Shown here in pieces: positions 1 to 60,608 of a stretch of DNA of 64,000 nt. A program made the translations under genes and the position numbers. The stretch's first letter is position 1. Each line of letters begins with the position of its first letter. The DNA comes from Bacteroidia bacterium (GTDB lineage: Bacteria > Bacteroidota > Bacteroidia > Flavobacteriales_D > Sanyastnellaceae). The notes under the pieces were generated by a model. The model saw only the letters and a program-made list of their open reading frames with translations, did no database searches and was not told where the DNA came from. The stretch is from positions 1 through 64,000 of the forward strand of contig JAUICJ010000006.1 in NCBI GenBank assembly GCA_030427925.1, written 5' to 3'.

Positions 1-1898
1 TCCGTGGCATCCGCGTTGTAGTTGCAAGCCATCGCGTCCTGGCAACCCGCCACTTCAAACTCGTCGCACACGCCATCCATGTCCGCATCCATCAGGCAGT
101 TGCCTTCGCAATCGTAACCGATCTCCGGATACGTGCAGCTTCCGTCGTCGTCCGTCGCGTCCATGTCGTAGTTGCACGCCATGCCATCGGTGCATCCACC
201 GACCTCGAACAAATCGCACACGCCGTCACCATCCGTGTCCACCAAGCATTCTCCATTGCAATCGTAGCCCGGGGTCGGGTACGAGCAGCTGCCATCGTTG
301 TTCGTCGCGGCCATGTCGTAATTGCAGGCGTTCGCGTCCGTGCAACCTTCCACTTCGAATTCGTCGCAAATGCCGTCCTCATCCGCATCGTTCAGGCACA
401 CCCCGTCGCAATCGTAACCCGCTTCGGCGTATTCACACGTTCCAGCATCGGTGGCGGTGGGAACGTAGTTGCAGGCCGTTTCATCTTGGCAGCCCACGAC
501 CTCATCTTCATCGCAGATGCCGTCCATGTCGGCGTCGTTCAAGCAGTTGCCGTCGCAATCCAGTCCGGCTTCAGCATACGTGCACGAACCATCGTCTTGG
601 GTCGCCGTCATGTCGTAGTTGCAGGCCATGTCATCCGTGCAACCCAAGCACGACGTGTACTCGCATGATCCGTCATCGGAAGTGGCGGTAGCCGAGAAGT
701 TGCAAGCCGTGTTGTCCGTGCAACCCGCGGTATCGAATTCATCGCAAATGCCGTTGCCGTTGGCATCGTTCAAGCAGTTTCCGTCGCAATCGAAGTAGGT
801 CTCCTCGGGGTACTCACAGGAGGCATCGTCGTCCGTTGCCGCCATATCGTAGTTGCAGGCCATCGCGTCCGTGCATCCGGGAACTTCATTCTCGTCGCAA
901 ATGCCGTCCATGTCGGCGTCGTTCAGGCAGTTGCCTTCACAATCCAGCCCCGCTCCAGCAAAGGTGCACGACCCGTCGTCGTCCGTAGCAGCCGCGTCGT
1001 AGTTGCACGCTGAGTTGTCGGTGCAACCCGGGATTTCATTCGCATCGCAAATGCCATCGCCGTCCGCATCGCCCAAGCACACTCCTTCGCAATCGTATCC
1101 CGCTTCAGCATACGTGCACGAGCCATCGTCCGCCGTTGCCGAAGCATCGAAGTTGCAAGCCGTTTCATCCATGCAGCCGTCAACAGCAGCCGTCGACGTC
1201 CCTGCGCCTTCGAAGCTGTACGTCAGCTGCAGCTGATCCGCACCGATTCCCAGCGGGAACACTTGTGCATTGATGGTTCCGCTGATCGTTCCCGCTGTGG
1301 TCAACTGGAGGAATAAGGTGCGCATCGTCGTGGGATCCGGCAACCCGTTCGGAGTCCCGTTCAACACGTACCACGCTCCCCCCGTGAAGTCATCCATGAC
1401 CACGTCGGAACCACTTTCTGGAGTTGCTGCGTTGAACGCGTTCGTCCAAGGCTGGGCCACGGACTCAACGGTTGAAACAGCCGTGTAAGGAGGAGTCGCA
1501 GACTCTTCGATGCCGATGGTGATCCAGCTATCGAATTCCATGTCCGGGAAGAACGAGAAAAACTGGGACTGCACGCCTCCGGCAGTCGAGCCTGAGGCAA
1601 ACGCATCATTGTAGAATCCGTCGCTTGTCATCAAGTAAAACGGGTTGTCTTCGTTGCCAAAAATGGAACTCAAGAAATCCGTTTCATTCACCATGTCGAT
1701 ATAGAAGCGGTAGGTCGTCATGCCGGCCAGGGCGCCGGTCGTGTGCACCGCATGCTCTTCGATGGTCATTGAATAATCGGCGGCCACTTGCGCAGACGCG
1801 TATTGGGTGGGCAAAACCCCGGAGAGTAACGCACCGGTCAATAAGCCCAAACCACTGGTTTTGAGCCCTTTGAACAATGCTGATGTCGAATTTGGCAT
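1..1898 (-). CDS. Giant secreted Cys-rich repeat protein, 3' end outside window
   Basis: The gene starts at an ATG at 1896-1898 and runs off the left edge without a stop, so only the first 632 or so residues are seen. A hydrophobic leader ending in YASAQ is a likely signal peptide. Residues about 40-235 form the recurrent domain of this window, with the motifs TTYRFYIDM, MEFDSWITIG and WYVLNG. From nt 1180 leftwards come tandem modules of about 50 residues (150 bp) with the pattern GCTD..ACNYD..AT.DDGSC.Y..GYDC.G.CL.DADGDG.CD. They have regularly spaced Cys, and Asp runs that look like calcium-binding loops. It is the upstream member of the 1-13450 array. Function is unknown; an extracellular structural or adhesive role is inferred. 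The secretion signal at the C-terminus is not visible. Confidence 0.85.
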   Translation of the reverse strand, partial: MPNSTSALFKGLKTSGLGLLTGALLSGVLPTQYASAQVAADYSMTIEEHAVHTTGALAGMTTYRFYIDMVNETDFLSSIFGNEDNPFYLMTSDGFYNDAFASGSTAGGVQSQFFSFFPDMEFDSWITIGIEESATPPYTAVSTVESVAQPWTNAFNAATPESGSDVVMDDFTGGAWYVLNGTPNGLPDPTTMRTLFLQLTTAGTISGTINAQVFPLGIGADQLQLTYSFEGAGTSTAAVDGCMDETACNFDASATADDGSCTYAEAGYDCEGVCLGDADGDGICDANEIPGCTDNSACNYDAAATDDDGSCTFAGAGLDCEGNCLNDADMDGICDENEVPGCTDAMACNYDMAATDDDASCEYPEETYFDCDGNCLNDANGNGICDEFDTAGCTDNTACNFSATATSDDGSCEYTSCLGCTDDMACNYDMTATQDDGSCTYAEAGLDCDGNCLNDADMDGICDEDEVVGCQDETACNYVPTATDAGTCEYAEAGYDCDGVCLNDADEDGICDEFEVEGCTDANACNYDMAATNNDGSCSYPTPGYDCNGECLVDTDGDGVCDLFEVGGCTDGMACNYDMDATDDDGSCTYPEIGYDCEGNCLMDADMDGVCDEFEVAGCQDAMACNYNADAT

Positions 1899-2029
1899 CG
1901 ATTTGAGGATTGGTTGTGTTTCGATCTGAATGAGCGAACAGGCCGCTCATGCGCAAACTTCGCAGAAATGCGAGGGAAAATCAGCAGACAACCACGAGAT
2001 TAACGAACAATTTACCTTGTAAAACGAAA

Positions 2030-2055
2030 ACGGGCCGCCCTTTCGGACGGCCCGT
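2030..2055 (-). terminator. Rho-independent terminator of the 2284-aa gene
   Basis: An 11-bp GC-rich stem (2030-2040 pairing with 2045-2055) encloses a tetraloop reading GAAA on the minus strand. It is followed on that strand by a T-rich tract (complement of 2021-2029). It lies 22 bp beyond the stop of the 2077-8931 gene. Confidence 0.8.
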
Positions 2056-2076
2056 TCCATCTAACTGCACCTGCCA

Positions 2077-5000
2077 TTAACGCTCGATGAGCAAGCGGGT
2101 TTGGGCGGTGCCTTCGTCGGTGATCGCGGAGAACACGTACCAACCCGCCGATAGGTGGCCGAAGTCCCATGAGCGCGCGCCGTTCCACGGTGCCGTGACT
2201 TCATTCCAAACCCGGCGGCCCGCGCCGTCATAGACATTCAGTTCCACGGTTGAAGACCAGCCCGCCAACTCAATGGAAACCACGCCTCGGGTGGGGTTCG
2301 GGTAAACCGCCCATTGCAGGGCCTCGACCTCGCCTACACCGACCGCGTCGATGTTGATTTCGGTGAGTTCGGTTTGGCAACCGTTCGCATCCGTCACCAC
2401 CAGGGAGTAGCTGCCAGCAGCGAGTCCGGTCACATCCTCATCCGTGCTCTGGAACGTGCCATCAAGCCCCGTCCAAGCGAACGTGTAATCCGGCGTCCCG
2501 CCCGAAACGGTGACGGCAATGCTGCCTGAGTTCGAACCGTTCGCATCCGGTTCGATGGCATCCACCGTGACCTCCAAAGCTTCCGGTTCGAAGACCTCCC
2601 CGGTCCACGTTGCCGTGCAGCCGGAAGCATCCTCCGCGCAAACCGTGTACGTACCAGCGCTGAGGCCCACGAACGTGTCGTCGGTGCTGAAGTTGGTGCA
2701 ATCGAAGGCAAACGCGTAGCTGCCCGTGCCGCCGTTGGCAAAGATCTGGATGGCCCCGTTCGCCCCGCCGTTGCATGAAACATCGGACACCACCGCGTCC
2801 ACGAGGAGCGGATCGGGAGAACCGACCACCACCTCGGTCACCGCCTCGCATCCGAGCGTGTCGACCACCGTAATGGTGTACGTTCCTTGGCCCAAGCCCG
2901 TCACGCTGTTGCCTTCAAGCGTTCCCACTGCGGGCAACCACGTAAAGGTCGGCGCATTCGAGCCGCTGACATCCACCGTAAAGGCTCCGTCCGCTGTGTC
3001 AAAGCACGTCGCATCCAGCGTTCCAGCAGCGGCCACTGCCACGTCACACGTGAAGCACGATCCGTCGTCGTCTGTGGCTTCCGCGTTGTAGTTGTCCGCC
3101 AGCGGATCCGTGCAACCGAGCACCTCAAAGGCATCGCAAACGCCATCGCCGTCCGCATCCTCCAAGCAGTTGCCGTCGCAGTCGTATTCGGGCTCTGCGT
3201 AGGTGCAGCTGCCGTCCTCTTCGGTGGCCTCCTCGGCGTAGTTGCATGCCGTTGGGTCCGTGCAACCTGCCAATGGATAGATGCAGGTGCCATCGTCGTC
3301 CGTGGCCGCATCGTTGTAATTCAAGGCCGTTGCATCGGTGCATCCGAGGAGTTCAAATTCATCGCACACGCCGTCGCCGTCGGTGTCGTTCACGCACGTT
3401 CCCGTGCAGTCGTAGCCTGCATCAGCGTAGGTGCAGGAGCCGTCGTCCACGTTCGCCGCATCGTCGAAGTTGCACGCCGTCAAATCCGTACAACCGAGAA
3501 CGGGCGCCTCGCACGAACCGTCGTCGTATTCGGCGTTCGCGTCGTAGTTCGCTGCCGTGTCGTCCGTGCATCCGCAGGAGTTGTCGATCGGAGTGAAATC
3601 CCACACGCCGTTCGTGAAGGCCAGCGGGTAGCGGAGCTCGTTCTCCCCCACTCCGTTCACGAAGACTTGCATGTTCACCACGCCGCTGAGCTCGCCGCCG
3701 GTCGTGAGCTGGGCGATGAGGACGCGGTGGTCGTCACCGGCCACCCCGTTGGGACTGCCATTCAGGAGGAACCACAGACCACCGATCTCGTCGTTGAGAA
3801 CGATGTCGTTGCCGGCTTCGAATGCGGTGGTCCAGGGGGTGGGACCTTGCACGGTTTGGACTTCACCCTCACCGGTGGCCGCTTGCTGGCTCAATCCGAT
3901 GGTCACCCAGCTGTCGAAGCCCAGCTCAGGGAAGGCCGCGAGCAGCATGGGATTCGTGGCCTGCGCGAGGGCACCACCGCCAGGGTGCTGATAGAAACTC
4001 GTCGTGCTCATGATCTCGAGGATGTCATCGCTGTTGCCAAACACGGAGCTGACGAAATCATCGGTGTTCTCGGTCGTAGCATAAAGGCGGTAAGTCGTTT
4101 GACCGGCCAAAACCCCGGCCGTGTGTTCCGCCACCACCTCGATTTCCAGGCCGTACGCGGGCGCTTCGCCGTTGCACGAGCAGAAATCGCACTCCCCTTC
4201 ATCCGTAGCTGCAGGATCGTAGTTGCAGGCGTTGTCCGCTTGGCAACCGACCACCTCAAACCCATCGCATACGCCATCGCCATCGGCATCCGCGAGGCAC
4301 GCGCCGTCGCAATCGTAGCCCGCTTCAGCGTATTCACATGAAGCATCGTCCACTTCGGCCGTGGCGTCGTAGTTGCAGGCCTCGGTGTCCGTGCAGCCTT
4401 CGATGGCGTGGAGGACGGTGATGGTTTGGACGAAGACGGTGCTGTTGCCGCACGCGTCGGTTGCTGTGTAGGTCCGCTCGATCACCGTGGACTCGTCGTC
4501 CGAGGAAAGGACCACGTCCTCGCTGACCCAGCTGGCCGTGAGGTCGCAGGCGTCCTGGATGAAGGCGGCGGGGTTGGGTACGGTTTGGCCCAACGCCTCG
4601 TCAACGATCAAGTTCTCCTCCAGCGCGAGGATGAACTCAGGCCCGACGGTATCCACCACCGTAATGTACTGAACAGCAGTCGCTTCGTTGCCCGCATCAT
4701 CCACTGCCGTGAAGGTCCGGGTGCAGAAATAGTTGAACGGAGCGCAGGGCAAAATGTACTCGATGGGGCCGTCGAAGAACGAAACCTGCACATCGGCGTC
4801 GCACTCGTCAATGGCCATGGCCATTCCGGTGGGCATGTCCTGGTCGCATGTGATGGTGGAATCCGCTGGAACGTAGACAAACGTCGGCGGCGTCACATCC
4901 GGGCTGCACGGGTACGTGCACGAGCCGTCGTCGTCCGTAGCCGCCGACTCGTAGTTGATGGCCGTCGCATCGGTGCATCCAGCCACCTCGAACGGATCAC

Positions 5001-8000
5001 ACACGCCGTCGCCGTCTGCATCGGCCAAGCAGTTGCCCGCGCAGTCGTACCCCGCATCGGCATACGTGCACGCCGCCGAATCCGTGGCCGAAGCATCGAA
5101 GTTGCATGCGGTGGCGTCCTGACATCCCGCGATCTCGAACTCGTCGCACACGCCGTCGCCGTCCGCGTCATTCAAGCAAACGCCTGCGCAATCGTATCCA
5201 CTCGCTGCGTAGGAGCAAGAACCGTCTTCGTCTGTGGCGCTCGCGTCGTAATTGCACGCGGTGTTGTCCGTGCAACCGGGCACCTCATTGGCGTCGCAAA
5301 TGCCGTCCGCATCCGCATCGGCCAAACACGCACCCGAGCAATCATAAAGCGGCTCGGCATACGTGCACGAACCATCATCGTCCGTCGCGTCGGCCTCGAA
5401 GTTGCACGCCACTGCATCCGTGCAGCCTGCCACTTCGAACTCGTCACAAACCCCGTCGCCATCCGCATCGTTCAAGCAAACTCCCGCACAATCGTACCCC
5501 GACTGGGCGTACGTGCACGTTCCGGGATCGGTCGCTGCCGGGTTGTAGTTGCACGCGCTCGCGTCAAGGCAACCCGCCACTTCGAGCCAATCGCAAATGC
5601 CATCGCCGTCCGAGTCCATCAGGCAGGTGCCCGAGCAGTCGTAGCCCGGAGTGGCGTACGTGCAGGAGCCGTCGTTGTTCGTCGCGGCGAGGTCGTAATT
5701 GCAGGCGTTCGAATCCGTGCAACCCGCGACTTCGAAGGCGTCGCAGACCCCATCACCGTCCGTGTCCACAAGGCACGTCCCGTCGCAGGCGTATTCGGGT
5801 TCGGCATACGTGCAGTTGGCGGCATCATCCGTCGCCGCAGCATCGTAGTTGCAAGCCATGGGATCCAAGCATCCTGCAATTTCATTCGCGTCGCACACGC
5901 CGTCGCCATCGGCATCTTCCAGGCACGTGCCATCGCAAGCATAGCCCTCCGGTGCGTATTCGCACGCATCGTCGATGGGCAAGCTGCACGCCCCGCCGAG
6001 GTTGACGCTAACAGCCACTTCTTCTAAACCAGAATCGGTGTAGTTGAAGATTTGGACAAACAATTCGCCGTCCAAGATGCCATCGGTGGTGAATTGCCCC
6101 AACAAAACGCGGAGGTCCTCACCGGCAATTCCGTTGGTGGCACCTTGCAAATTGTACCATCCCCCTCCCGTAACGTCATCAATGACGATGTCTCCACCGG
6201 CTTCAAAATTCACCAACCAAGGATTCGTCGGGCCGGCAATGATGTTCACAGGGCCTTCGCCTGCCGAAGGGTCCGCTGGGCCCTCGACCCCAATGGTCAC
6301 CCAGCTGTCGTAGGAAACAGCGGGAAAGAAAGGCAACAAACTCGCGTTGATGCCAGTCGCAACGCCCGCACCAAATGGGTCCTGGTAAAAAGACGTCGAT
6401 GAGCTGATGACGGTGGAAGCATTGCTGTCCCCGAAGACGCCGGAAACGAAGTCGTCCGGGTTTTCACACAACGCGTAAATGCGGTAGGTCGTGAAGCCCG
6501 TCAAGTCCACCTCCCCGATCATTCCATCGTGTTCCATCACGGTTTCGATTTGGACGCAATACCCCCAATCTGCCGTGTAGTTGCATGCGTTCGGATCGCC
6601 GCAAATCGGATCGTAGGTGCAGCTGCCGTCGTACTCCGTCGCATTCTCGTCGAAATTGTTGGCCAACGCATCGGTGCATCCCAACACTTCAAACGGATCG
6701 CACACCCCATCGCCGTCGCTGTCGAGCGCGCATGCGCCTTCGCAATCGTACCCGGTTTCGGGGTAGGTGCATTGCGTGTTGTCCGTCAAGGTCGCGGATG
6801 CATCATAGTTGCATGCGCTTTCATCGGTGCAACCGAGGCAAGAGAAGAATTCGCACGAGCCGTCGTTGATGGTGGCAAAGGGGTCGTAGTTGCAGGCTGA
6901 AGGGATGACGCATCCCGTTCCGTCCGAACCGCATGAGCCATTGTCATCCGTCGCCTCGGGATCGTAGTTGGGAGCCGTCGGATCCGTGCATCCTGCCACT
7001 TCCAGCGGATTGCAAATGCCGTCGCCATCGGTGTCTTCGAGGCAGTTGCCTTCGCAATCGTAGTGGGTTGCAGGGTAGACGCAGGTGCTCGGTGCGGGCA
7101 ACGTCGCCTCCGGATCGTAGTTGCACGCTGTAGCGTTCATGCAACCCAAGCACGTCGTGTACTCGCATGAGCCGTCGGACGTCGTGGCGTCCGGATCGTA
7201 GTTGCAGGCTGTTTGGATGACGCACCCCGGGACGGCGCACTGACCGCTGTCGATGGTGGCGTCCGGATCGTAGTTGGTGGCCTCTGGATTCGTGCACCCC
7301 ACGCATGAGTTGAAGTCGCAGCTTCCATCGTTCACGGTCGCTTCTGGATCGTAGTTGCAGGCCGTGCTCACGGTGCATCCGAATTGAACGCAGCTCGTGT
7401 ATTCGCAGGAACCATCGTTGTAAAGGGCCTGCGGATCAAAGTTGCACGCGTTTGAATCCGTGCATCCGATGCATGAGAAATAATCGCACGCGCCGGGGAT
7501 CGTGGCATTGGGGTCATAGTTGCACGCGCCCGGCACCATGCAGCCCTCTCCTCCAGCCACCGCGGTCATCGTGATGGCGTGTTCCAAAACCACTTCGTCG
7601 CACGCATTCAGAACGACTACTTGAAAACCATACTCCCCTCCATTTGTGATGACGAACGGGAAATCGGTCACGGCAGCATCCCCAGTGGCCGCCCAGACAG
7701 GGTCCGACCAAGTGAAGTTCGCCACAAACGAATTCGTGGTGTCCACATCCAACGAAGCGTCCGCAGCAAGCAGCGCCGAAATGTCGTGCACATAGTACGT
7801 CGATGGGTCGTTCCCCGCGCTCGGATCGAAGTCCAACTTCGCTTGGACCGTCAAGTCGCTGAAGCTGTAACCGCCGAGGTCCAGGTACATGACCGCGCTC
7901 CAGCTCGCATCCATCGTGGTACCGCCCGCTCCGTCTGGAGCAAATCCGGCCCCAGCTGAGTAGGCCGTCCCGGTGACGCCGATGAGTCCGTCGGGATCGT

Positions 8001-8931
8001 TGGGCGTGTGGAACGACAAAATGGACGAAATCGCCCCCGCATTTCCGACTCCGATGTACGTGGACATGTCGTTGTCCGACACCCCCAACGGCAAGGAGCC
8101 CGCTTCTGCGGACAAGCCATCGAGGTTGTCCGTGTCCGGACCATAAAAGTCGCTCTCGTTGTTGCCGAAAAAGAAGGGATAATCGCAGACCGTGGTGCCA
8201 TCGCCTTCTGGAACGCAGTTCAAAGCTCCTGGGCAATCCGCGGGCAAGCTCTCGGGAATGGGGTCGAAGACTTCGGTTCCGAGGAAGGACTTGGACACGA
8301 TGAACTCGTTTTGGCCATTGCCTTCTGGGAAGATTTGGACGTTGAAGGTTCCGGAAATCGTGCCGTTGGTGGTCAACTGTGCAATCAAAACCCGCTTCGA
8401 CTCACCCGCGATGCCGTTGGGGCTGCCATTCAGGATGTACCAAACACCTCCCGATGGGCTGGCCAACGACATCCCCGATGCCGCGCTCGTGGAGATGAAG
8501 CTGTCGACCCACGGTTCGTTCGGGCTGGCCACCGTCGAAATGGTGGTTTGGTTCCCCGTTGGCACTTGATCGATGCCGATGGTCACCCAGCTATCGAACT
8601 CGAGCTGCGGAAAGAACGGATAAAACGCTGGATTGACTCCGTCAGCGGTGCAACCGCTGGCGAACTCGCAATTGTACAACGTCCCGTCCAGGATTTCAAG
8701 ATCCATGGGCGTGCCCTGATCTCCGAAAACCGCGGAGACGAAATCCGTCTCGTGCTCGGTCTCCACATAAATCCTATAAGTCGTGTAGCCCGCAAGGTCC
8801 ATGGACCCGACCATTCCGGTGTGTTCCTCCAACACGTCGATGGAGAGGTTGTACTGGGCTTGGACACCTGCAATGAGGCAGGTTGCTAGCATCGCTGCCA
8901 GCAGGCCCTTTAAGGTGTTGATTTGCTTCAT
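2077..8931 (-). CDS. Giant T9SS-secreted Cys-rich repeat protein, about 2284 aa
   Basis: I prefer the ATG at 8929-8931, because MKQINTLKGLL..AGVQA is a compact signal peptide; an in-frame ATG lies 27 bp upstream at 8956-8958. Domain order by nt: recurrent TTYR/FDSWVTIG domain (8860-8270), unassigned region (8265-7560), Cys-rich modules (7560-6560), second TTYR domain (6560-5990), seven or so tandem 150-bp Cys/Asp modules (5980-4910), two HYR-like beta units (4905-4400), a short Cys block, third TTYR domain (4160-3600), more Cys modules (3570-3050) and three SprB-like repeats (3045-2340). The C-terminal T9SS type A sorting domain has AVYPNPTRG and ends RLLIER. About 12 DxDGDG.CD loops suggest calcium binding. 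Export by T9SS and surface attachment follow from the sorting domain; the molecular role is unknown. Confidence 0.92.
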   Translation of the reverse strand: MKQINTLKGLLAAMLATCLIAGVQAQYNLSIDVLEEHTGMVGSMDLAGYTTYRIYVETEHETDFVSAVFGDQGTPMDLEILDGTLYNCEFASGCTADGVNPAFYPFFPQLEFDSWVTIGIDQVPTGNQTTISTVASPNEPWVDSFISTSAASGMSLASPSGGVWYILNGSPNGIAGESKRVLIAQLTTNGTISGTFNVQIFPEGNGQNEFIVSKSFLGTEVFDPIPESLPADCPGALNCVPEGDGTTVCDYPFFFGNNESDFYGPDTDNLDGLSAEAGSLPLGVSDNDMSTYIGVGNAGAISSILSFHTPNDPDGLIGVTGTAYSAGAGFAPDGAGGTTMDASWSAVMYLDLGGYSFSDLTVQAKLDFDPSAGNDPSTYYVHDISALLAADASLDVDTTNSFVANFTWSDPVWAATGDAAVTDFPFVITNGGEYGFQVVVLNACDEVVLEHAITMTAVAGGEGCMVPGACNYDPNATIPGACDYFSCIGCTDSNACNFDPQALYNDGSCEYTSCVQFGCTVSTACNYDPEATVNDGSCDFNSCVGCTNPEATNYDPDATIDSGQCAVPGCVIQTACNYDPDATTSDGSCEYTTCLGCMNATACNYDPEATLPAPSTCVYPATHYDCEGNCLEDTDGDGICNPLEVAGCTDPTAPNYDPEATDDNGSCGSDGTGCVIPSACNYDPFATINDGSCEFFSCLGCTDESACNYDASATLTDNTQCTYPETGYDCEGACALDSDGDGVCDPFEVLGCTDALANNFDENATEYDGSCTYDPICGDPNACNYTADWGYCVQIETVMEHDGMIGEVDLTGFTTYRIYALCENPDDFVSGVFGDSNASTVISSSTSFYQDPFGAGVATGINASLLPFFPAVSYDSWVTIGVEGPADPSAGEGPVNIIAGPTNPWLVNFEAGGDIVIDDVTGGGWYNLQGATNGIAGEDLRVLLGQFTTDGILDGELFVQIFNYTDSGLEEVAVSVNLGGACSLPIDDACEYAPEGYACDGTCLEDADGDGVCDANEIAGCLDPMACNYDAAATDDAANCTYAEPEYACDGTCLVDTDGDGVCDAFEVAGCTDSNACNYDLAATNNDGSCTYATPGYDCSGTCLMDSDGDGICDWLEVAGCLDASACNYNPAATDPGTCTYAQSGYDCAGVCLNDADGDGVCDEFEVAGCTDAVACNFEADATDDDGSCTYAEPLYDCSGACLADADADGICDANEVPGCTDNTACNYDASATDEDGSCSYAASGYDCAGVCLNDADGDGVCDEFEIAGCQDATACNFDASATDSAACTYADAGYDCAGNCLADADGDGVCDPFEVAGCTDATAINYESAATDDDGSCTYPCSPDVTPPTFVYVPADSTITCDQDMPTGMAMAIDECDADVQVSFFDGPIEYILPCAPFNYFCTRTFTAVDDAGNEATAVQYITVVDTVGPEFILALEENLIVDEALGQTVPNPAAFIQDACDLTASWVSEDVVLSSDDESTVIERTYTATDACGNSTVFVQTITVLHAIEGCTDTEACNYDATAEVDDASCEYAEAGYDCDGACLADADGDGVCDGFEVVGCQADNACNYDPAATDEGECDFCSCNGEAPAYGLEIEVVAEHTAGVLAGQTTYRLYATTENTDDFVSSVFGNSDDILEIMSTTSFYQHPGGGALAQATNPMLLAAFPELGFDSWVTIGLSQQAATGEGEVQTVQGPTPWTTAFEAGNDIVLNDEIGGLWFLLNGSPNGVAGDDHRVLIAQLTTGGELSGVVNMQVFVNGVGENELRYPLAFTNGVWDFTPIDNSCGCTDDTAANYDANAEYDDGSCEAPVLGCTDLTACNFDDAANVDDGSCTYADAGYDCTGTCVNDTDGDGVCDEFELLGCTDATALNYNDAATDDDGTCIYPLAGCTDPTACNYAEEATEEDGSCTYAEPEYDCDGNCLEDADGDGVCDAFEVLGCTDPLADNYNAEATDDDGSCFTCDVAVAAAGTLDATCFDTADGAFTVDVSGSNAPTFTWLPAVGTLEGNSVTGLGQGTYTITVVDTLGCEAVTEVVVGSPDPLLVDAVVSDVSCNGGANGAIQIFANGGTGSYAFAFDCTNFSTDDTFVGLSAGTYTVCAEDASGCTATWTGEVFEPEALEVTVDAIEPDANGSNSGSIAVTVSGGTPDYTFAWTGLDGTFQSTDEDVTGLAAGSYSLVVTDANGCQTELTEINIDAVGVGEVEALQWAVYPNPTRGVVSIELAGWSSTVELNVYDGAGRRVWNEVTAPWNGARSWDFGHLSAGWYVFSAITDEGTAQTRLLIER
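4910..5980 (-). repeat. Tandem 150-bp Cys/Asp module array
   Basis: Seven consecutive coding repeats lie about 147-153 bp apart, judged from the recurring CACACGCCGTCGCC-type block at about 5001, 5148, 5297, 5450, 5594, 5744 and 5896. Each encodes one GCTD..ACNYD...DGSC...YDC.G.CL.D.DGDG.CD unit. Similar blocks occur in this gene at 6560-7560 and 3050-3570, in the gene at 1-1180, and more divergently in 52746-60470. Confidence 0.85.
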
Positions 8932-9061
8932 GTAAGCGGTTTTTGTGAATTGCTTCATGGATGGATGAATTTGACGCCAATTGCTCGACGCGAAGTTCTT
9001 TACGGCAGAAAGCCCGCGCAGGTTTCATTCGTTTGATTCTTACCCAACAAGCACAAAAAAA

Positions 9062-9110: not shown

Positions 9111-11519
9111 TCAGTCACGCTTCACCAATTGAAGCGACTCGCGCCCCGATTCGGTAGAAAGGTGGAATTGATAGAACCCATTGGCAATGCCAGAAAGGTC
9201 CATCATGAATTGGAAATCCCCAACGCGGTTTCCGAACGCTTCGCTGTACACCGCGCGACCTTGCATGTCGGTCACTTCAATCGCCAACCGCTCGCCGCGC
9301 AACCCTTCAAGGCTGACTTGGAACAAGCCCGTGCTCGGGTTGGGGTAAACGGCTACGCGCTCAGCAATCGAGAGGTCCGCAACGCCCAAAGCGATTTCAA
9401 CCTCGTAAGTGGTCTCGCAATCGTTGCTGTCGGTCACCGTCACGCTGTACCCTCCAGCGAAGGCCCCCGTGATGTCCTCGTCCACGGAGAAGAAGTTGTC
9501 GGGTCCGGACCATACGAACGTGTAAGGAGCCGTACCGCCCGTTACCGTGATGTCGATTTCGCCGTCACCCGTTTCATCCGCATTGACAACCGTGGACGTC
9601 ACTTCAATGGCATCCGGCTCAGAAACGGAGGCCGTAGCTTCTGCGCTGCAATTGTTCTGATCCTGTACGTAAATGGTGTACTCGCCCGGAGCCGTTGCAG
9701 GGAAGGTTCCACCCGCCACAAAGTTCACCCCGTCGATGCTGAACGTGTAGCTGCCTGTACCTCCCGTAGCCGAACCCGAAACGAAGCCGTCGGCTCCACC
9801 GTTGCATGCGATGTCGGTTGCCGTAGCCGTAGCCACCACCGGTGCAGGGTCGACCAATTCAACCGACTCTGTGGTTACGCAATCGTTCACGTCCGTGACC
9901 GTCACTTCGTACGTTCCAGCATCCAAATCCCCGAACAGGGACTGGTCCATGGCGTCCTCGCCATTGAAGGTGAACGCGTAGCCACCCGAACCTCCTGAAG
10001 CAGCGAAGGTCACCGAACCATCGGCAGCGCCGGTGCAGCTGATGCCCTCAGATGACAGCGTCAAATCCAATGCCATCGGCGCACCAATGGTCACGGGATT
10101 GGCTGTTTGGCCGGTGCAGCCGTTCACGTCCGAAACGTACACCGTGTAGGTGCCCGCCCCGACGTACAGAACGGATCCGTTGTTGTTGGTGCCTGTCGTG
10201 TAGTTCACCTGGTCCACGCTGTACTGCAGGCCCGTCGAGCCCGGCGTGCCGCCCACGGTGGTCACCAAAATGGTGCCGTCCTCCGAATCGGAGCACGAAG
10301 CGCTCGTAGAATTCGTCACGTACACGTTGATGACCGGGGGATTGTTGATGAAAATGGCCGGTGAGCTCGCCGTGCAACCGTTCTCGTCCTCCACGTAAAC
10401 CGTGTAGTTGCCCGAGGGCAGCCCCGTGAACTCCAAGGTTTCAGAAGGGTTCGAGAAGGTGTTGTCGTTCAAGCTGAACATCAGGTTGCCGGTTCCACCC
10501 GTTGCCGTGCCTCCGATGACTGCGTCTGAGTCGCCGTTGCACGACACCGCGCTTTCCAACACCGCGCTCACGGCAAGCGGAGCCGGTGCAACCACTTCAA
10601 ATTCCAAGGTGTCCACGCAACCTGCACCATCGATGCCCACGATGTAGTGAGCGCCGGCTGGCAGGTCATCGAAGTTCGGATTGGTGAAGGAAGGCGTTGC
10701 TCCATCAATGCCGTAAGTCACTCCAAATTGACCTCCGGTTTGTGCCACGGTGATTTCACCATCGGACAAGCCTGGGCAGGAAATCGAAGTCAACGAGCCG
10801 GGCGAAAGCACCAACGCGCAAGGGTAGTTGCACGGACCTTCCGCCGTCGCATCGGGGTTGTAGTTCTCGGCGGCTTCATCCATGCAGCCGAAAATGGCTC
10901 CGGAGTCCGAAGAGAACAGGAAGCCCTCTGCTTGCTGCTCGTTCGATTGGTTGCCCTCAACGAAGATCTGAATGTTGAAGGAGCCTTGGAACGTGCCCGA
11001 AGTCGTCAACTGCGCGATGAGCACTTTCAAATCATCGCCCGCAATGGAGTTGGGGTCCGTGGTCACGAACCACGAGCCGCCGAATTGGTCGTCCAAGATG
11101 AGGTCCCCCCCGCTGTTGAAGCTCTCCAGAGGAGCCACCATGCCCACCGTACCGACGTTCCCCAAAACGGGGTCACCTGGTGCGTATCCGATGGTGAGCC
11201 AGCTGTCGTACTCTGCTTCAGGAAACGCGGTGAAAAACAGCGCGTTCACCCCCTGCCCCAAGTCGTCCCCGAAGGTGGAGTTGAAGAAACCGTTTTCCGA
11301 CGTCAACGAGAGCGGAGCCGTTTCGTCGCCATAAACAGCTGACACCTTGTCCGTAGGGTTCGTCAAATCAGCGTAAACCCGGTAGGTCTTCATGCCCGCC
11401 AAGGACGCAATGCCCGTCGTATCGTGGTCCGCTACTTCGACTACCGAGTAGCCCACCAATTGGGCTTGGCTCAGGGAAATCATGCCCAAAGCCATCGCAG
11501 ATAGGATCAGTTTCTTCAT
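9111..11519 (-). CDS. T9SS-secreted SprB-repeat protein, 802 aa
   Basis: The signal peptide is MKKLILSAMALGMISLSQA. One recurrent TTYR domain follows (nt 11465-10920; motifs TYRVYADL, AEYDSWLTIGY, AGDDLKVLIAQLTT). Then comes a single Cys module (GCMDEAAENYNPDATAEGPC). Next are five or six SprB-type repeats (nt 10800-9420), each with the pattern C.G..DG.....GGTG.Y.F....G.YTV.V.D.NGC. A T9SS type A sorting domain follows (AVYPNPSTGLF, ending LQLVKRD). SprB repeats occur in the mobile gliding adhesin of Flavobacterium, so a cell-surface adhesive role is plausible, but whether the organism glides is not shown here. It is monocistronic, with its own promoter and terminator. Confidence 0.9.
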   Translation of the reverse strand: MKKLILSAMALGMISLSQAQLVGYSVVEVADHDTTGIASLAGMKTYRVYADLTNPTDKVSAVYGDETAPLSLTSENGFFNSTFGDDLGQGVNALFFTAFPEAEYDSWLTIGYAPGDPVLGNVGTVGMVAPLESFNSGGDLILDDQFGGSWFVTTDPNSIAGDDLKVLIAQLTTSGTFQGSFNIQIFVEGNQSNEQQAEGFLFSSDSGAIFGCMDEAAENYNPDATAEGPCNYPCALVLSPGSLTSISCPGLSDGEITVAQTGGQFGVTYGIDGATPSFTNPNFDDLPAGAHYIVGIDGAGCVDTLEFEVVAPAPLAVSAVLESAVSCNGDSDAVIGGTATGGTGNLMFSLNDNTFSNPSETLEFTGLPSGNYTVYVEDENGCTASSPAIFINNPPVINVYVTNSTSASCSDSEDGTILVTTVGGTPGSTGLQYSVDQVNYTTGTNNNGSVLYVGAGTYTVYVSDVNGCTGQTANPVTIGAPMALDLTLSSEGISCTGAADGSVTFAASGGSGGYAFTFNGEDAMDQSLFGDLDAGTYEVTVTDVNDCVTTESVELVDPAPVVATATATDIACNGGADGFVSGSATGGTGSYTFSIDGVNFVAGGTFPATAPGEYTIYVQDQNNCSAEATASVSEPDAIEVTSTVVNADETGDGEIDITVTGGTAPYTFVWSGPDNFFSVDEDITGAFAGGYSVTVTDSNDCETTYEVEIALGVADLSIAERVAVYPNPSTGLFQVSLEGLRGERLAIEVTDMQGRAVYSEAFGNRVGDFQFMMDLSGIANGFYQFHLSTESGRESLQLVKRD

Positions 11520-23155: not shown

Positions 23156-26100
23156 TCAATCCCGAATGCAGCGAATCATGAATCCCGTGTTGTATTCACT
23201 AGATCCCGAAGTCACTGCGTCGGAGGATGTGAGCTTCATGTGGTTCGCCTCCAATGTCCCTTCATTGCCTGTGTTTGCAACCCAGAAATGGGTTTCATTA
23301 AATGGACTAGAGGGTTCCCATCCATTGTTTCCTTTGTACGGGCTTGGAACTGCGTTGAAGTAATCGATCGTCGATGAACCATTCCAATCAGTTGAAGACT
23401 TGAGGAATGCACCAGCCGTTGATGCTCCTCCGTAGAAGTTCAAAAGTGTCGTCCAGTCGGCTTGGTCAGCCACACTCCAACCGGTTGGGCAAACTCCTGC
23501 CGAACTCTTCACAACATAGTAATTGTACAAGTATCCAACATCACTCGGACCATAGGCTGCATTCGCATTGTTTGTCACCCAAGAATTCGGGATGGCGGTT
23601 CCGTCCGAATAGGAGGAGGTGATCAAGTTTTCATCCATCCAGCACTGCCCACCAATGAGTACCGTGCCATAGGTATGGCCGTTGTACGTCACAGTTGGGA
23701 TGTCACAAGGGGTAGGACCTGAAGAATACGTCCAATTGAACTCATCGGATTCCAAATTGCCGTTTCCAGCTGCATCATTAAACGAACCTGCAGCAATGCT
23801 GATCGTACAGTCGCCGTCAGCATCAGGAGTGAACGTTGCGGAGTACGAAGAGCCAGCCCCTGTGAACGAAGAAATGACACCATTGGTAACCGTCACATCT
23901 TCTGCTGTGAAGTCCGTTGTTGCCTCCGAGGAGGTGAACGTCAAAGTGAGCGACGCATCGCTTGATGAGTCGCCATCAGAGACCTCCGAAGCCGTGATGC
24001 TGATGGCGGGAGGAGTCAAATCGAGGCTGATCCAGAAAAACTGGTCCGCAGCAATGCTGGCGTTCTGAGATTCATCTGAAAACGCGCCTGCAGCAACTTC
24101 GATGGCGCAATAGCCTGGCCCATCAGGCGTAAAGGTCGCTGTGTACGTCGTGCCCGAACCGGTGAATGCCGAAATCGATCCATTCAGCACCGTGATGTCT
24201 GCTGCATCGAAATCTGACGTGCTCTCTGATGCGGTGAACGTCATCGACAACGATGCATCCGGAGATGTTCCACCATCCATGACTTCCGCCGCCTCAATCG
24301 TCATCGTCGGCGGGGTCGCATCGGCTGCGAGGACGCAACGCACGGAAAACCCAGATCGCTTGTTGTAGTTGCCCTGAGCGATGATGTTGAGGTCGGTATA
24401 GAGTACGCGGCTATTGGCATTGCTGACGTCGCTGGCGTGGGGCGAGGAACTCCACCAGTTGCCGCTCGAACCGGCACTGTTGAAGTCTCCATTGGAGGAC
24501 TTGCGCGAGCCGCCCGGTAAACCCGAAAAACCACTGCTATTCGTACCGTCCCATGCGGGGTCTTCCATGGCAGCGGACTTCATCTTGCTCCCTGCGGCAC
24601 CTAAGCCACCCAAGTAAGTGGTCAACGTCGTCCATTCATCGTGTGTGGGCACAGACCAACCCGAGGGGCACAATTTGCCCGTGTTGACCGCATACCAATT
24701 GTACAACCGACCATAGGTCGCCAAATTCGTGGCTTCATTCGCACCGCCTTCGTCATAAATGGTCATCGCTCCATCTGTAGTGTTGGACCACGCCGCATTG
24801 TCCAACCCACTCGGGATGACTGCCTCATCGTTGTAGTTGGTGGACCGCAAGTTCTCCGCAAACCAACATTGTTCGCCAATCAGGACGGTTGCGTAATCAT
24901 AGCCGTCGTAAGTCATGACATCCCCACACGTATTGAATTCCGCAGCCCCGCCAGAGGCGGCCTGCAGCTCCTGGATTAATCCCTCCAAATAAGCAATGGT
25001 ATCCGAAAGGGCGACAATCGCGCGCTCGTTTGTGAAGTACAGGTTCGACGAACCTTCCGTCAAGACGTCGGTGTCGTGGTTGGAGAGGTCGCCGATTTGG
25101 CCATTGATCACGTCCATGACGCTCAGGCTGTCCGCCCACAACGTCGCCGCGACGTTCGCGCCCGAGCCGACCACTAAGCTGTCGTTCAACGTCGTAACAC
25201 CGTCAACAACCAACGTGCTGTTCAACGACGTGGCGCCATCAACATTGAGATCTAGGTCAACGTTAACGTCGTCATGGAAATCGGCTTGTCCGTTAACATC
25301 CAACGTGCTGCTCAACGACGTAGCGCCATCAACGTCCACGTCATCATCGAAATAGGAATATCCGTAAACATTCAACGTGCTGTTCAACGACGTAGCGCCA
25401 TCAACATTGAGAACTAGGTCAACGTTAACGTCGTCATGGAAATCGGCTTGTCCGCTAACATCCAAGGTGCTGTTCAACGACGTAGCGCCATCAACGTACA
25501 AGTCGTCATAGAAAGAGGAATATCCACTAACATCCAACGTGCTGTTGAGCGTCGTAGCGCCATCAACGTCCACGTCATCATCGAAATAGGAATATCCGTA
25601 AACATTCAACGTGCTGTTCAACGACGTAGCGCCATCAACATTGAGATCTAGGTCAACGTTAACGTCGTCATGGAAATCGGCTTGTCCGCTAACATCCAAG
25701 GTGCTGTTCAACGACGTAGCGCCATCAACATTGAGATCTAAGTCAACGTTAACGTTGTTATGGAGATCGGCTTGTCCGCTAACATCCAACGTGCTGTTGA
25801 GCGTCGTAGCACCGTCAACGGTCAATGAATACGCCGCGATGTCATCGAAGGTGACGTCGTCTGTCGTGCCGACAGCTTGACCAATTGAAATCTCTCCTTC
25901 GTCCAGTGTCACGCCTGTTCCCGCGGTGAAAGCATCTTGAGCCCGGGACTCGGTGAAGTACAGGTTGGTGGTGCCTTCAGACAAGGCATCGGTGTCGTGG
26001 TTGCTCAAGCTTGAAACGCGTCCGTTGATGACATCCGTGACCGCGATGCTGTCGGCAAACAACGTTCCGTCAATCACGGCATGGCCGTTGACGGTGAGGC

Positions 26101-52745: not shown

Positions 52746-55700
52746 TCAGTTGCAAGAGGTTCCGTAGAACTGGAAGAACTCAAGCAGGTCGTTCACGTTG
52801 ACTTCGCCGTTCTCGTCGAGGTCAGCAGGGCACGGATCTGGGTAATCGCAACCACCGGGGTAGTTCGCGTTCACATTGTAATCCAATCCCTCTGGATCCA
52901 TGCAACCCACGATCACGCAGCTGCCATCGTCTTGGCTGGCAACTGGGTTGTAGTTCGCAGCGCCAGAGTCGGTGCAGCCTTCGTAGATGCAGCTGCCGTC
53001 ATCGACCAGAGCCGTATCGTCGTAGTTCACCGCGTCCGCATACGTGCAACCTGCGTAGAACGTCACCAACACGTGCTGGTTGAAGGTCGTGCTGTTGCCG
53101 CATGCATCCGTGATGGTGTAGACGCGAGACAATTCGAATCCGTAAACGCCTGACGCTGCATACGTGTCCTCGGTTTCGATGCTGTACTCGCTGCAATCTT
53201 CAATCACTTCCAATTCAACCAACTGAGGCAGGGTTTGGTCCGTGTAGTACACCAAGCTGATTTCGTCGGAACCGACGACTTCAGGTGCGGTGTTGTCCTC
53301 CAAAGTGATGATTTGAACATCTTGGGAGAAGTTGCCGCAACCATCGGTAGCCGTCCAAGTACGGGTGATGATGTTGTCATTGAAGCAAGAACCTTCGCTC
53401 GTTGAAACCGCGTCCTCATAAGTGAGTTCGATGTCAGCAGAGCAGATGTCAGCAGCATCGGTTACTTCACCCGTCAAGGAGAGGTCGGACAAGTCCGTTC
53501 CGCATTCCAAGGTCACGTCAGCAGGTGCCGTGAAGGTCGGAGCAATGTCGTCCGTGAAGACGATCATTTGCGTGCTCGACGTGCTGTTGCCGCATGCGTC
53601 AGTCGCCGTGAAGGTCCGCAAAATGCTCATGGCACCCGTGCAGGTCATGGACGAATTGACGTCGATGTAATCCACCGTTACTGCAGAACAACCATCCGTA
53701 GCAGCCGGGAGGTCGGTGGGCAGCGCCTCACCACATCCCAATTCAATCGTTTCAGCGACCGCTTCCATTTCAGGTGCCGTCGTGTCGATGAACTGGATGA
53801 ATTGAACCGCAGAAGTTGCATTGCCACATCCATCGGTGACCGTCCACGTCCGACGAATGACATCGTCAGCGAAGCAACCATCAGCACTGGTTTCAATGAC
53901 GTCCTCGTGAGAAACCGTCAGTTCACTCATGCAGTTGTCGGCCAAGTCCGTAGGCTCACCCATCGCTGCAGTCGAAGCATCCGCGCCGCATTCGACCGAT
54001 GCATCAGCAGGAGCCGTGAAGGTCGGGGCCTCCGTGTCAGCGTAGGTGACCGTTTGCGTCGCAACCGCCGTGTTGCCGCAACCATCCGTTGCCGTGAAGG
54101 TGCGGATCACTGCTGCCATGCCCGTGCAGTTCGTTTCGCCGGCTGACTCAGACACCGTCACTGTGACACCGCTGCACGCATCCGTTGCCTCTGCCATGTC
54201 CGTTGGAATCGCATCACCGCAAGCGATGGAGATGTCCGCAGGCACACTCGTGAAGACCGGCTCCACTTCGTCGACGATGGTGATGGTCTGGGTAGCAGTC
54301 GTGGTGTTGCCGCACTCATCCTCAGCAGTCCAGGTCCGGATGATCACGTCACCAGCGAAACAAATGTCCTCACCCGCAGCATCGCTGTATTCGATCGTCG
54401 CAGAACCGCATCCGTCCATCAGATTGGTCACGTCACCCGTCAAGGCCAAATCCGTTGCGTCAGCACCGCAAGCGATGGTTGCGTCAGCAGGTACCGTGAA
54501 CGTCGGTCCCGTGATGTCCTCTACGGTGATGTTCTGGACGATGGAAGCTGAATAGCCCACGTTGTCCGTAACCGTCCACGTCCGAACAATGGTGTAGCTG
54601 TTGGGGCAAGAGCCCGGAGTCACCACGTCGACAAAGTCGAAGTCGAGTTCAGAATCGCAGTTATCGGATGCCACAGGGAAGACGTATTCCGTTTGGATGG
54701 CTTCGCAAGTCGTCGTGTAGTGCTCGACGCTCTCGATGACAGGAGAGCTGTTGTCGAACAAGCAGACGTCATCGCAGGACGCTTCGTTCGTCACGTAGTA
54801 GCAGTTGCCGTCGTCGGTGACCGCTTCCTCGTCGTAGTTGCACGCCATCTCATCCGTGCAAGCGCAGTAGGGCGAGCCCCATGACATGCTGACGTACTTC
54901 GTGCTGCCTGCAGCCAAACCTTCTGGGAAGATCTGTGCATACAACTGGATGTTCAAAGTACCAGGCGTGGTCAACTGAGCGACCAGCACCCGGTTGTCGT
55001 CACCTGCAACACCATAAGCATCGCTCGTTTCAGCAGACAAGTACCAACCGCTTCCGACCACGTCGTCGATGACGATGTCCGAACCGGATTCAAACGCTCC
55101 GATCCATTCCGGGTCAGAACCTCCCAATTGAGTGGGGACCTGGATGGAAGACACGGGCGTGTTTTCACCAATCGTAACCCAAGAATCGTACTCCAACGTT
55201 GGGAATGACGCGAACAGCGCAGCGTTCGGCCGGAATTCCGTTCCGTAAATGTCTTGGAAGAACTGGCTAGACGAAGCCAACACAATCGGATTCAAATCGT
55301 TACCGAGCAGCGCGTTCAGGCGGTCCGTCGGGTTCGCCGTCGTCACGTAGACGCGGTAGGTGGTCATGCCTGGGATGCCATCCACAGCCACTTCTTCGAT
55401 TTCGATGCCGTACTCGTCATCGCTCGAGAAGAGGATTGGGCAGCTGCAGTAGTCACAGAAGTCCTGTGAAGGCTGCTCCGCCGTCGGGTCGTAGTTGCAT
55501 GCCGTTGCATCGTTGCAACCCTGCAACGCATCGCAAATCAAGTCGCTGTTTTGGTCGAGGCAATTGCCATCGCAATCGTAACCGAAATCAGCGTAGGTGC
55601 ATGAGCCATTGTCGGTGACCGCGTTGGGTGCGTAGTTGCACGCCATAGCATCCGTACATCCCGAGCAATCTTCGGTGAAGAAGCACGAGCCATCGTTGTC

Positions 55701-58700
55701 CGTCGCGCCGAGGTCGTAGTTGCAGGCCGTATCATCCGTGCAACCAGGAACTTCGTCCTCGTCACAAACGCCATCCGCGTCTGCATCGTTCAAGCAAGCA
55801 CCGTCACAATCGACGTATGAGTTGCCATAGATGTCCTCTGGGAAGACGCACTCCGCTTCGTTGGAGTAGGTCGCGGAAGCGTCGTAGTTGCAGGCCGTTT
55901 CGTTCAGGCAACCGCATGAGTTCGTGCCGAAGCTCAAGGTCAGGTATTCCGCATCGGCACCGACGCCGTTCGGGAAGACTTGTACGAACATTTGTCCTGA
56001 AACTTCGCCGTCCGTGGTCAACTGAGCCACCAAAACGCGCTGGTCTTCACCCGCATATCCGTTGGAGAATGTGGGGAGGGTGAACCAAGAACCTCCGAAG
56101 AAGCTGCTGATGTCCAAGTTGTTTCCTTGTTCGAATGAAGCAATCCAAGAATCTCCTTGGGCTTGAACAAACGTGATTTCAGATTCACCCGCTGCAGGCA
56201 ACGACTCGATGCCCATGGTCAACCAGCTGTCGTATTGGAGCGAAGGCATGAAGCCGAAGAACAACGGGTTGATTGAGGCTGCAGAGTACGAACCAAACTG
56301 TTCCTGATGGAAGCTCGTCGTGGTGTTCAAGAAGGTCGGAACCACTTCATCACCCGCAATGGCAGAGACGAAGTCCGTAGGCGAAGGCGTCGTAACATAG
56401 ACGCGGTAAGTGTTCAGGCCCGGGATGCCGTTCTCAACGTGCAACTCCAACTCCAACCCGAAGCCATTCTGGCCGCCTGAAGTATTGCCGCAAGAACAGA
56501 AGTCACACGATCCGTCTTCGTACGTGGCGGTCATGTCGTAGTTGCAAGCCAAAGCATCCGTGCAACCCAGGATTTCATTGACCACAATGGTTTGGTTCGC
56601 AAATGCCGTATTACCACAAGCGTCCGTAGCCGTGAACGTGCGGGTAATGGTCGTAGCCAAATCACCCACAACAGGCACATCGCTGTACGTAACGGTCGGC
56701 TCGCTGCAGTTATCCGAAGCTTGCGCCAATGCCGTCGGGAGTGACTCACCGATTTCCAAGGTCACATCCGCCGGAACCGACGTGAACACAGGAGCTTCGT
56801 TGTCAACAACGGTCATGGAATGGCTCCGAACCGTGGTGTTGCTGCATCCGTCCACCGCTGTGAATGTGCGGACAATGGTGTAGTTGTTGGGGCATGCACC
56901 TGGCATGATCGTTTCCACAACAGACACCGCGGCTGAACCTTCACAATCCATGGCCTCAGGCGTCGCCAATGACGTATCATCCGAGCAGCTGACCGTGACG
57001 TCCTCAGGGAAGTCAACGAATTCCGGACCTTGGGTATCCACGATCGTAATGGTCTGGGTAGCCGTGTCCGTATTGCCCGCATCGTCAGAAACGGTCCACG
57101 TACGCAACACCCCGTTGGAAGCCAAGCAAGTTACTTGGTTCGCCACTTCGAAGCTGGCCGTTTCACCCTCAGTGTAGACGGCATTGCCCGTGAACGAAAT
57201 GACCAACGCACCGTTGCTCGACGTCGCAGACAATTCCGCGTTGGGAGCGATTCCGTTGGAAACCACTGAGATCGCGCCGAAATCAAATCCAACCGCATTG
57301 TCGATTGTCAGGGTAGCGTAATCGTATGCGTAGGCTCCAGTGACCGTGCCCGTCACCGTCAAGGTGATCATGGAACCATCGATGTCCACTTCGAAAAGAC
57401 CGCGGTGTGATACGGGGTTAGAAACCACATCATCCGCTGACATTTCCAAACCTGCCCCCACCGTTACGCCTTCTGCAGAAACCACGTAAGGTTGACCGAA
57501 CAAACCTGGCAAATTCAAGCCGTAGCTCGCATTCAAGTCAAGGGTTACGCCGTTCAAGCTCGCAGAGTTTCCGAGCGGAGCGTCCTCGTAAGTCCAAGAC
57601 AATTCACCATCACAATTGTCCGTAGAAGCGGTCGGCTCTCCCGTAACGGATGGGTCGATGCCTTCAGCGCATTCAACCGTCACGTCCGCTGGTGCGACCG
57701 CGACCGGTGCAACTTCATCAATCAAGGTCATGGTCTGCACCGCCGTTGCCGTGTTGCCCGCAGCGTCAGTTGCGGTAAAGGTCCGGGTGACCACAAACGT
57801 ACCCATCATGGGGGCAATCTCGTCCTCATACGTCACGACCACAGGCAGTCCGCATCCGCCATCCACCGCAACCGCCATCTCCGTGGGGAGGTCGCTGTCG
57901 CACGCCATTACAGCGTCAGCTGGAACCGAAGTGAACGTCGGGGCTTCCGTGTCTTCCGTCATGTAGTTGAAAGGAAGGGTCACACGCTGATCCACTCCTT
58001 GATCTCCTTGGTCGAAGATTTGAACGTACAACTGACCGCTGAGCATTCCAGTGGTTGTGAATTGACCAACCAAAACGCGGTGGTCATCCCCTGCAACGCC
58101 ATTGTCGTAGTCCGCCGTAACGAACCAGCTGTCGCCCAACGTGCTCGTGAGGTCGATGTTGCCTCCAGCTTGGAATACCTCAGCCCAATCCGTGGTGCTG
58201 GCCAATTGAGGTGACCCATAACCCTCCGGCAGGATTGAAGACTCCACACCAATCGTCACCCAGCTGTCGTAAGCGAGTTCCGGGTAGACTCCGAAGAAGG
58301 CGGGCATCAAATAGGTCGGGAAAGGCGACGGGGACAGCGTTCCTTGGAAGAACGACGTGGTCGTGTTGATCATGGTCGGGAACTCCGAAGTGCCCGAAAT
58401 GGCCGAGACCAAGTCCGTTGCATCATCGGTGTTCACGTACATCCGGTAGGTCGTACCGTATTCTGAAGTGGCGTGCTCCTCAATTGAAACGAAGTAACCG
58501 TCAACTTCCGTCGTGCTGTAGCAGCAGTAATCGCAAGAACCATCGTTGTCCGTTGCGCCAGAATCGTAGTTGCAAGCATCAGCCTCGGTGCAACCACCCA
58601 CTTCGAATTCATCGCAAACGCCGTCCATGTCCGCATCGTTCACGCATGAACCATCGCACGTGTAACCCGCATCCGGGTACAAGCAAAGGCTGTTATCGGT

Positions 58701-60470: not shown

Positions 60471-60490
60471 TATTCCTAGGTTAAGCGACC

Positions 60491-60498
60491 GAAAATTA
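60491..60498 (-). promoter_or_regulatory. Possible -7 box (TAATTTTC) of the 2574-aa gene
   Basis: One mismatch to TAnnTTTG, 20 nt before the ATG. A CTTG lies about 20 nt further upstream on the minus strand at the expected -33 spacing. Confidence 0.35.
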
Positions 60499-60608
60499 CG
60501 AAATATCGACCCAACAAACAAGCACAACGGCGGGAAAATCGCCTCCGTCGAAAAAAAAAGACGATTCGACGCATGAAGAAGACCCCGCTAAGCCCCGCAA
60601 TACTTGCG

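Follow-up and report, generated by a model that had tools for sequence, protein, structure and literature searches.

We consider it likely that two giant genes at the start of a Flavobacteriales contig, A and B, encode exported surface proteins in which strings of disulfide-closed calcium modules serve as stiff spacers for beta domains. This reading is based on the repeats themselves, a cysteine pairing rule, the conservation of a calcium-type loop, export signals, the spread of the module through one bacterial family and folding predicted with high confidence. The window in which the genes lie comprises the first 64 kb of contig C22 in a genome (G000) of 2.95 Mb that is 99.5% complete; base 1 of the window is base 1 of the contig. 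Its minus strand carries four genes, A, B, D and C, that draw on one common building set, consisting of a signal peptide, the FDSWVTIG beta domain of ~180 residues and the Cys/Asp modules, with SprB repeats as additions in B and D and HYR_4C repeats in C.

All features of these genes within the window lie on the minus strand. The 5' part of gene A (positions 3..1898) encodes 632 residues up to the contig end: a signal peptide ending in ..ASAQ, one beta domain in the form FDSWITIG (1215..1763, placed by sequence match and by an AlphaFold2 model of 1032-1787) and an array of nine modules (3..1178), which are identified by profile, are spaced by 50, 50, 51, 27, 50, 49, 50 and 50 residues and include seven EF-type loops. 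The gene is known only in part because the contig end, an assembly break, interrupts its array. Its 3' end is found on contig C14 (3-1058), which was joined to it not via the assembly, but via 73% DNA identity to an intact 1009-residue gene of a sister species (G001). Gene B (2077..8958; 2293 residues) starts with a signal peptide (..GVQAQ) and contains SprB repeats, three beta domains found by sequence match (8284..8853, 6010..6558 and 3634..4155) and 25 modules. The modules form a first array of mixed short (24-29 residues) and long copies (6570..7545, coordinates from profile positions), a second one of seven modules spaced by 49-50 residues (4917..5874), a pair defined by profile (4171..4398) and a fourth group of five modules, again short and long mixed (3055..3573). 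Gene D (9111..11519; 802 residues) has one beta domain (10938-11420), one module recognized by motif, and SprB repeats. Gene C (52746..60470; ~2574 residues counted from the ATG) combines five beta domains with 14 modules and HYR_4C repeats.

Counted by position, the first half of the module reads G-C-T-D-x-x-A-C-N-Y-D-x-x-A-T-x-D-D-G-S-C, to which long modules append YDCxGxCLxDxDxDGxCDxxE. With a regular expression for the core, we count 9 copies in A and 20 in B; shuffled sequences contain, on average, 0.002 and 0.010 (maximum 1 in 500 shuffles each). The preliminary description of this DNA, made from the letters of the sequence, was therefore right in seeing repeated Cys/Asp modules in both giant genes. 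A profile recognizes 9 modules in A, 25 in B and 14 in C, with 7, 11 and 3 EF-type loops, respectively. Three main sizes can be told apart, namely ~24 residues with two cysteines, 26-27 residues with four, and 49-50 residues with six cysteines and a 12-residue EF-hand-type loop. The spacing of 147-153 bp given previously holds for the long modules, whereas the shorter kinds, which had not been distinguished, recur every 72-87 bp. A further form of ~36 residues with a cysteine within the core (AGCDDGSC..CGNCGG), likewise with an even number of cysteines, occurs at three loci (L071, L119 and L141). On the DNA level, modules are mostly 65-75% identical to each other, and TRF reports one array in positions 1-9000, with 2.7 copies and 69% match. 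When this stretch is compared with itself and with gene C, as had been proposed, the module indeed turns out to be common to C, but the longest exact repeat measures 25 bp within 1-9000 and 27 bp to 52746-60527. Nor is the module local to two adjacent genes: 138 matches across the 2.95 Mb genome rule out a peculiarity of neighbours.

If the cysteines pair within each module, their number per module should be even. Among distinct modules closely trailed by another one, it is even in 289 of 293 and odd in 4; among near-complete long modules, it is even in 808 and odd in 15 of 823, a set of distinct sequences drawn from 1776 distinct aligned stretches at all loci, with the gapped ones left out. 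The same rule is apparent in the linker that follows the core. Where the cysteine at position 8 (C8) is present, the linker has an odd number of cysteines in 219 of 235 modules; of the 58 modules that lack it, 57 have an even linker count (Fisher p 9.7e-45, a value that overstates independence because the modules are related sequences). In short modules, this relationship is tighter still, with exactly one linker cysteine in 44 of 47 that have C8 and none in all 36 that lack it. Most of the seeming exceptions carry an extra cysteine beside the core (AGCDDGSC type), which restores parity.

In the long modules, six cysteine columns (2, 8, 21, 30, 34 and 44) are occupied in 92-100% of the 823 sequences. 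From the pairing rule, we infer bonds between C2 and C21 and between C8 and the first linker cysteine. A bond between C34 and C44 around the loop is probable; it is the weakest of these assignments, resting on three modules in which both residues are jointly missing, and 60 of the 823 long modules have no C34 in the corresponding alignment column. Parity and the co-occurrence of C8 with its partner thus bear out, at the level of sequence, the earlier picture of disulfide-locked repeats with regular cysteine pairs.

The loop of the long modules is almost invariant. Position 1 (D37) is Asp in 821 of 823 sequences, position 3 (D39) Asp in 780 and Asn in 40, and position 5 (D41) Asp in 783 and Asn in 39, while position 12 (E48) is Glu in all 756 ungapped cases. 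Asp at positions 1, 3 and 5 with Glu at 12, the way in which EF-hand-type calcium loops space their ligands, is hence found in nearly all of this set of 823. The helix-loop-helix pair of EF-hands is not seen in the AlphaFold2 model, which has only three-residue helical turns (HHH) near the loops, and all Pfam EF-hand models stay below cut-off on the genes and on a two-module stretch. Pfam TSP3_bac matches gene B with 44.5 bits (cut-off 25); gene A has no match at E up to 1, and the two-module stretch alone scores 14.5 bits, below cut-off. The earlier suggestion of calcium-binding-type repeats is therefore upheld by the near-invariant D1, D3, D5 and E12 together with the TSP3_bac match in B, again as judged from sequence. 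As in the bacterial TSP3 repeat of Pfam (PF18884), a DxDxDG calcium loop occurs in tandem with cysteines; unlike it, the loop has a Glu as its last residue (position 12) and forms a unit of two parts with GCTD..ACNYD..DDGSC, a half for which no Pfam or NCBIfam model exceeds its cut-off. The modules presumably also resemble the thrombospondin type 3 repeats of animals.

AlphaFold2 predicts a three-module array with a pLDDT of 93.6 and a pTM of 0.57 (78 natural three-module rows of 160), and the beta domain of gene A with one module (1032-1787) with a pLDDT of 93.5 and a pTM of 0.84. These models contained no ions and were judged by their confidence scores, not by disulfide or calcium geometry. 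Accordingly qualified, the modules of the array appear well defined, but their relative orientation and the overall bend, and with them the stiffness, are not reliably predicted at a pTM of 0.57. In a Foldseek search of the PDB with the array model, no chain was found, which does not demonstrate a new fold; the sequence profiles of array and beta domain likewise have no match among PDB sequences.

The route out of the cell can be read from both ends of the proteins. The signal peptides of A, B, C and D all have a Gln right after the likely cleavage site. At its C-terminus, gene B encodes a type A sorting domain of the type IX secretion system (T9SS; 2086..2307), recognized by PF18962 (29.1 bits, cut-off 27) and TIGR04183 (32 bits, cut-off 23). 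Por_Secre_tail is also found over cut-off in gene D and in the detached part of gene A (C14:834-1052, 40.7 bits); gene C matches neither PF18962 nor TIGR04183 at E up to 1. A gene for the SprA translocon is present on contig C6 (PF14349, E 3.4e-155), and together with 56 type A tail matches it indicates a type IX route in this genome. Signal peptides and type IX tails thus support the surface location that had been assumed for A and B. With signal peptide, SprB repeats and a C-terminal sorting domain, cargo of the A/B/D type resembles SprB/RemA-like gliding adhesins. It differs from SprB, which has a type B tail according to passages of PMC10202324, in the type A tail of A, B and D and in the additional Cys/Ca module and FDSWVTIG domain.

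Gene C ends differently. Its last ~28 residues (52749..52832) follow the pattern CPGDLNxDGxVxxxDLLxFLxxFGxxC, with one calcium-type loop between two cysteines at the extreme C-terminus. This tail has 69 matches in the genome, on 55 ORFs (gene C and 54 others), none of which is among the 56 with a type A tail. In the loci that we read, 21 of 23 tail matches start 26-32 residues before the end of the frame, and all 15 fully read tail ORFs of this genome have a signal-peptide-like start, 11 by pattern and 4 by eye. The loop (DxNxDGxVxxxDLL) and the cysteine at the protein end are reminiscent of the GC-type dockerin NF041540, but the gene C tail is a single repeat, not the full 67-position domain with two tandem calcium repeats, and scores 16.1 bits against a cut-off of 29; of four tails compared with this model, three reach 16.1-21.7 bits and the fourth gives no match. 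In one case (G000:C45:54540-55889), an ORF with two tail matches also contains a Pfam cohesin. The word 'dockerin' is absent from the searched passages of T9SS papers, including PMC10202324. It is conceivable, if rather doubtful, that the exported surface proteins of this family fall into two classes, one of them so far unrecognised. In this second class, the dockerin-like tail would stand in for the type IX tail as a signal for sorting or anchoring, and it may dock calcium-dependently on a surface partner, half a dockerin at a time.

The module characterizes an entire bacterial family and is not a fast-changing repeat confined to A and B. At 1e-3, it matches 36 of 36 relatives within the family and 13 of 23 genomes from other families of the order. 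The three-module profile matches 17 of 395 genomes across the phylum, two of which belong to the family, and most of the others match over a short part only. The beta domain is found in 65 of 66 family genomes and 10 of 133 others, among the matches listed, and the dockerin-like tail in 36 of 37 family genomes versus 2 of 23 from other families of the order. In genus g4, two genomes keep many modules (42 and 49), with tails nearly absent (1 and 0) and beta domains scarce (4 in each); two loci of this genus (L078 and L079) contain long, regular arrays with ~20 modules of ~147 bp in a row. Named relatives of the module are mostly metagenome-assembled genomes (MAGs) titled Flavobacteriales, Crocinitomicaceae, Cryomorphaceae or Bacteroidetes. 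Three loci with euryarchaeote titles (L145-L147) carry the module, and two of them (L145 and L147) the tail; they probably stem from misbinned Flavobacteriales, and we do not count them as an archaeal occurrence. By eye, L145 has a bacterial-looking, aminoacyl-tRNA-synthetase-like neighbour.

The combination of beta domains with dockerin-like tails could also be understood as a scaffoldin-like assembly, in which the FDSWVTIG domains would be cohesin-like receivers, the tails would plug into them and the Cys/Ca modules would be rigid linkers. Cohesins are numerous among the best 50 rows of a VIA structure comparison with the beta domain (best Z 5.7, rmsd 3.8, 123 aligned residues), the genome has its 69 tail matches, and the numbers of tails and domains correlate across 37 genomes (rho 0.80). 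Furthermore, in two relatives, GCTD modules are separated from a GDLNHD dockerin-like loop by a cohesin-like domain, which exceeds the Pfam cut-off in L164 and stays below it in L170. Yet the folds retrieved by VIA are a mixture of beta sandwiches whose highest Z is 6.2, short of 8, and the cohesins are outranked by a lipoxygenase/zonadhesin entry and by Als adhesins; a Foldseek search of the PDB with the beta domain gives no hit under E 0.01. Pfam cohesin matches 0 of 31 FDSWVTIG domains, which have no other family match either, and an hhalign comparison with nine cohesin-hit domains aligned the GCTD module only. As sequence gives it no support, we do not adopt a cohesin identity for the beta domain, whose fold is ambiguous. 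The counts of modules, domains and tails all correlate (rho 0.66 to 0.83), modules with domains as highly as 0.83, which leaves no special tie between tails and domains; one genome (G039) has 15 domains and a single tail, and the tail has one calcium repeat instead of two. We therefore regard a scaffoldin as highly improbable. Just as little probability is given to a calcium or metal store or a protective coat, in which the acidic, Cys-rich arrays would matter as a bulk layer and not as a spacer. The 138 module matches in a genome of this size and the acidity of the EF loops would suit such a layer, but the modules alternate with domains of other kinds (beta, HYR and SprB), for which a mere coat would have no use, and the layout of the arrays in B is conserved.

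This conservation also bears on the proposal that DNA similarity between modules promotes unequal recombination, so that array length probably varies. In its strong form, arrays of A and B would be hypervariable contingency loci, with modules swapped within and between the genes and a quick change of length and sequence. The comparison draws on one genome each of two species, in which several genes broken by contig ends could not be counted. In the sister species (G001), A and B adjoin as well. Gene A has 72% identity to its ortholog and lacks a stretch of 67 residues; only 2 of its 9 modules are best matched by the module at the same position (7 have lost this identity), the ortholog is nearer in 4 of 9, and overall it is no closer than the paralogs (0.66 versus 0.68). 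Another gene (C30+) has four additional 59-residue modules in G001. Arrays on C46, C36 and C30 contain exact repeats of 40-89 bp, and of the 102 contig ends in the assembly, 9 are no more than 200 bp away from a module match; both observations show that young arrays exist elsewhere in the genome. Gene B, however, has 73% protein identity to its ortholog over 2306 residues with small gaps only, 25 modules in both species and equal spacings in 23 of 24 cases. Its modules are nearest to the one at the same position in G001 in 18 of 25 cases, and in 21 of 25 the ortholog is closer than any other module of the same gene. Further gene pairs are equal as well, with 22:22 and 9:9 modules, and the longest exact repeat in 1-9000 is the 25 bp mentioned above. 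Between these two species, the recombination idea is thus partly right, as it holds for A and some other genes and fails for B, and fast length change is ruled out as a general statement; hypervariable arrays are an unlikely explanation for the two genes.

Contig ends cluster in arrays, including base 1 of the window and ends of C15, C11, C14, C30, C46, C36 and C28, and array lengths in such MAGs are consequently underestimated. A much younger repeat of another kind is found in gene F (23156-26587), where the region 25205-25820 consists of a 234-bp unit with 97% match and exact repeats of up to 94 bp. It encodes VDGATSLNSTLDVSGQ-type repeats and would be more likely than A or B to vary in length.

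Returning to A and B as exported surface proteins with modular spacers, we envisage that both would leave the cell by Sec and then by the type IX system onto the cell surface. Their backbone would be a string of small modules, each closed independently by its own disulfides, that fold on C2-C21 in every case and on C8 with the cysteine just past the core, and in the long ones probably also on C34-C44. Each long module would contribute one EF-hand-type calcium site. Provided that the modules are oxidized and occupied by calcium in vivo, such strings would be stiff, protease-resistant spacers set by calcium, in keeping with the 'fibre' proposed before, and would hold the FDSWVTIG domains off the outer membrane. 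These beta domains are likelier binding parts than the modules, and adhesion or cell-cell contact may be the purpose of the whole.

Relatives of the module are also encoded by viruses. We find them at 17 IMG/VR loci, while a second scan with short modules found none, and BFVD yields 11 hits at E up to 1e-3. In tblastn searches, phage and plasmid records have no match at 1e-5 with long modules, nor do phage records at 1e-3 with short ones. The viral contigs L185-L198 encode exported-looking proteins of ~470-800 residues with a Cys/Ca module and a T9SS sorting domain; seven of these proteins, from 7 of the 17 loci, were scanned, and every one has such a domain at E up to 0.01, which exceeds the cut-off in L187, L194, L196 and L185. 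In a PHROG scan of eight neighbours or module proteins, one matched, a neighbour identified as a virion structural protein (phrog_22602). Phage-borne type IX cargo has already been published for Cryophage, where it comprises an endoglucanase, a GH39 and a PA14 protein according to the part of PMC7468147 that deals with them. The viral contigs described here similarly encode T9SS-tailed proteins and differ in that these bear the module of the host family. They are a new instance of a phenomenon already in print, and they suggest that phages act on the cell surface of this family.

We found no description of the module in the literature searched, which was matched letter for letter with module strings and consisted mostly of non-subscription papers. 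Likewise, among titles and the beginnings of abstracts, there was no match on TSP3 with T9SS, on dockerins or cohesins in Bacteroidetes, on dockerins in Flavobacteriales, or on Cys-rich repeats in Cryomorphaceae or Crocinitomicaceae. In the curated libraries that we searched, the GCTD half, the beta domain and the tail all lack a model that exceeds its cut-off, and giant proteins built from them are therefore hard to annotate at present. The cysteine pairing rule can be deduced without any data beyond the sequence, and hundreds of variants that contain two, four or six cysteines exist in nature; the modules are therefore a good system for studying how disulfide-rich modules gain and lose bonds. 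A and B belong to a surface system that extends through the whole family. In combination, the module, the beta domain and the tail are so strong a mark of this uncultured family of Flavobacteriales that its cell surface probably differs from that of the model gliding bacteria.
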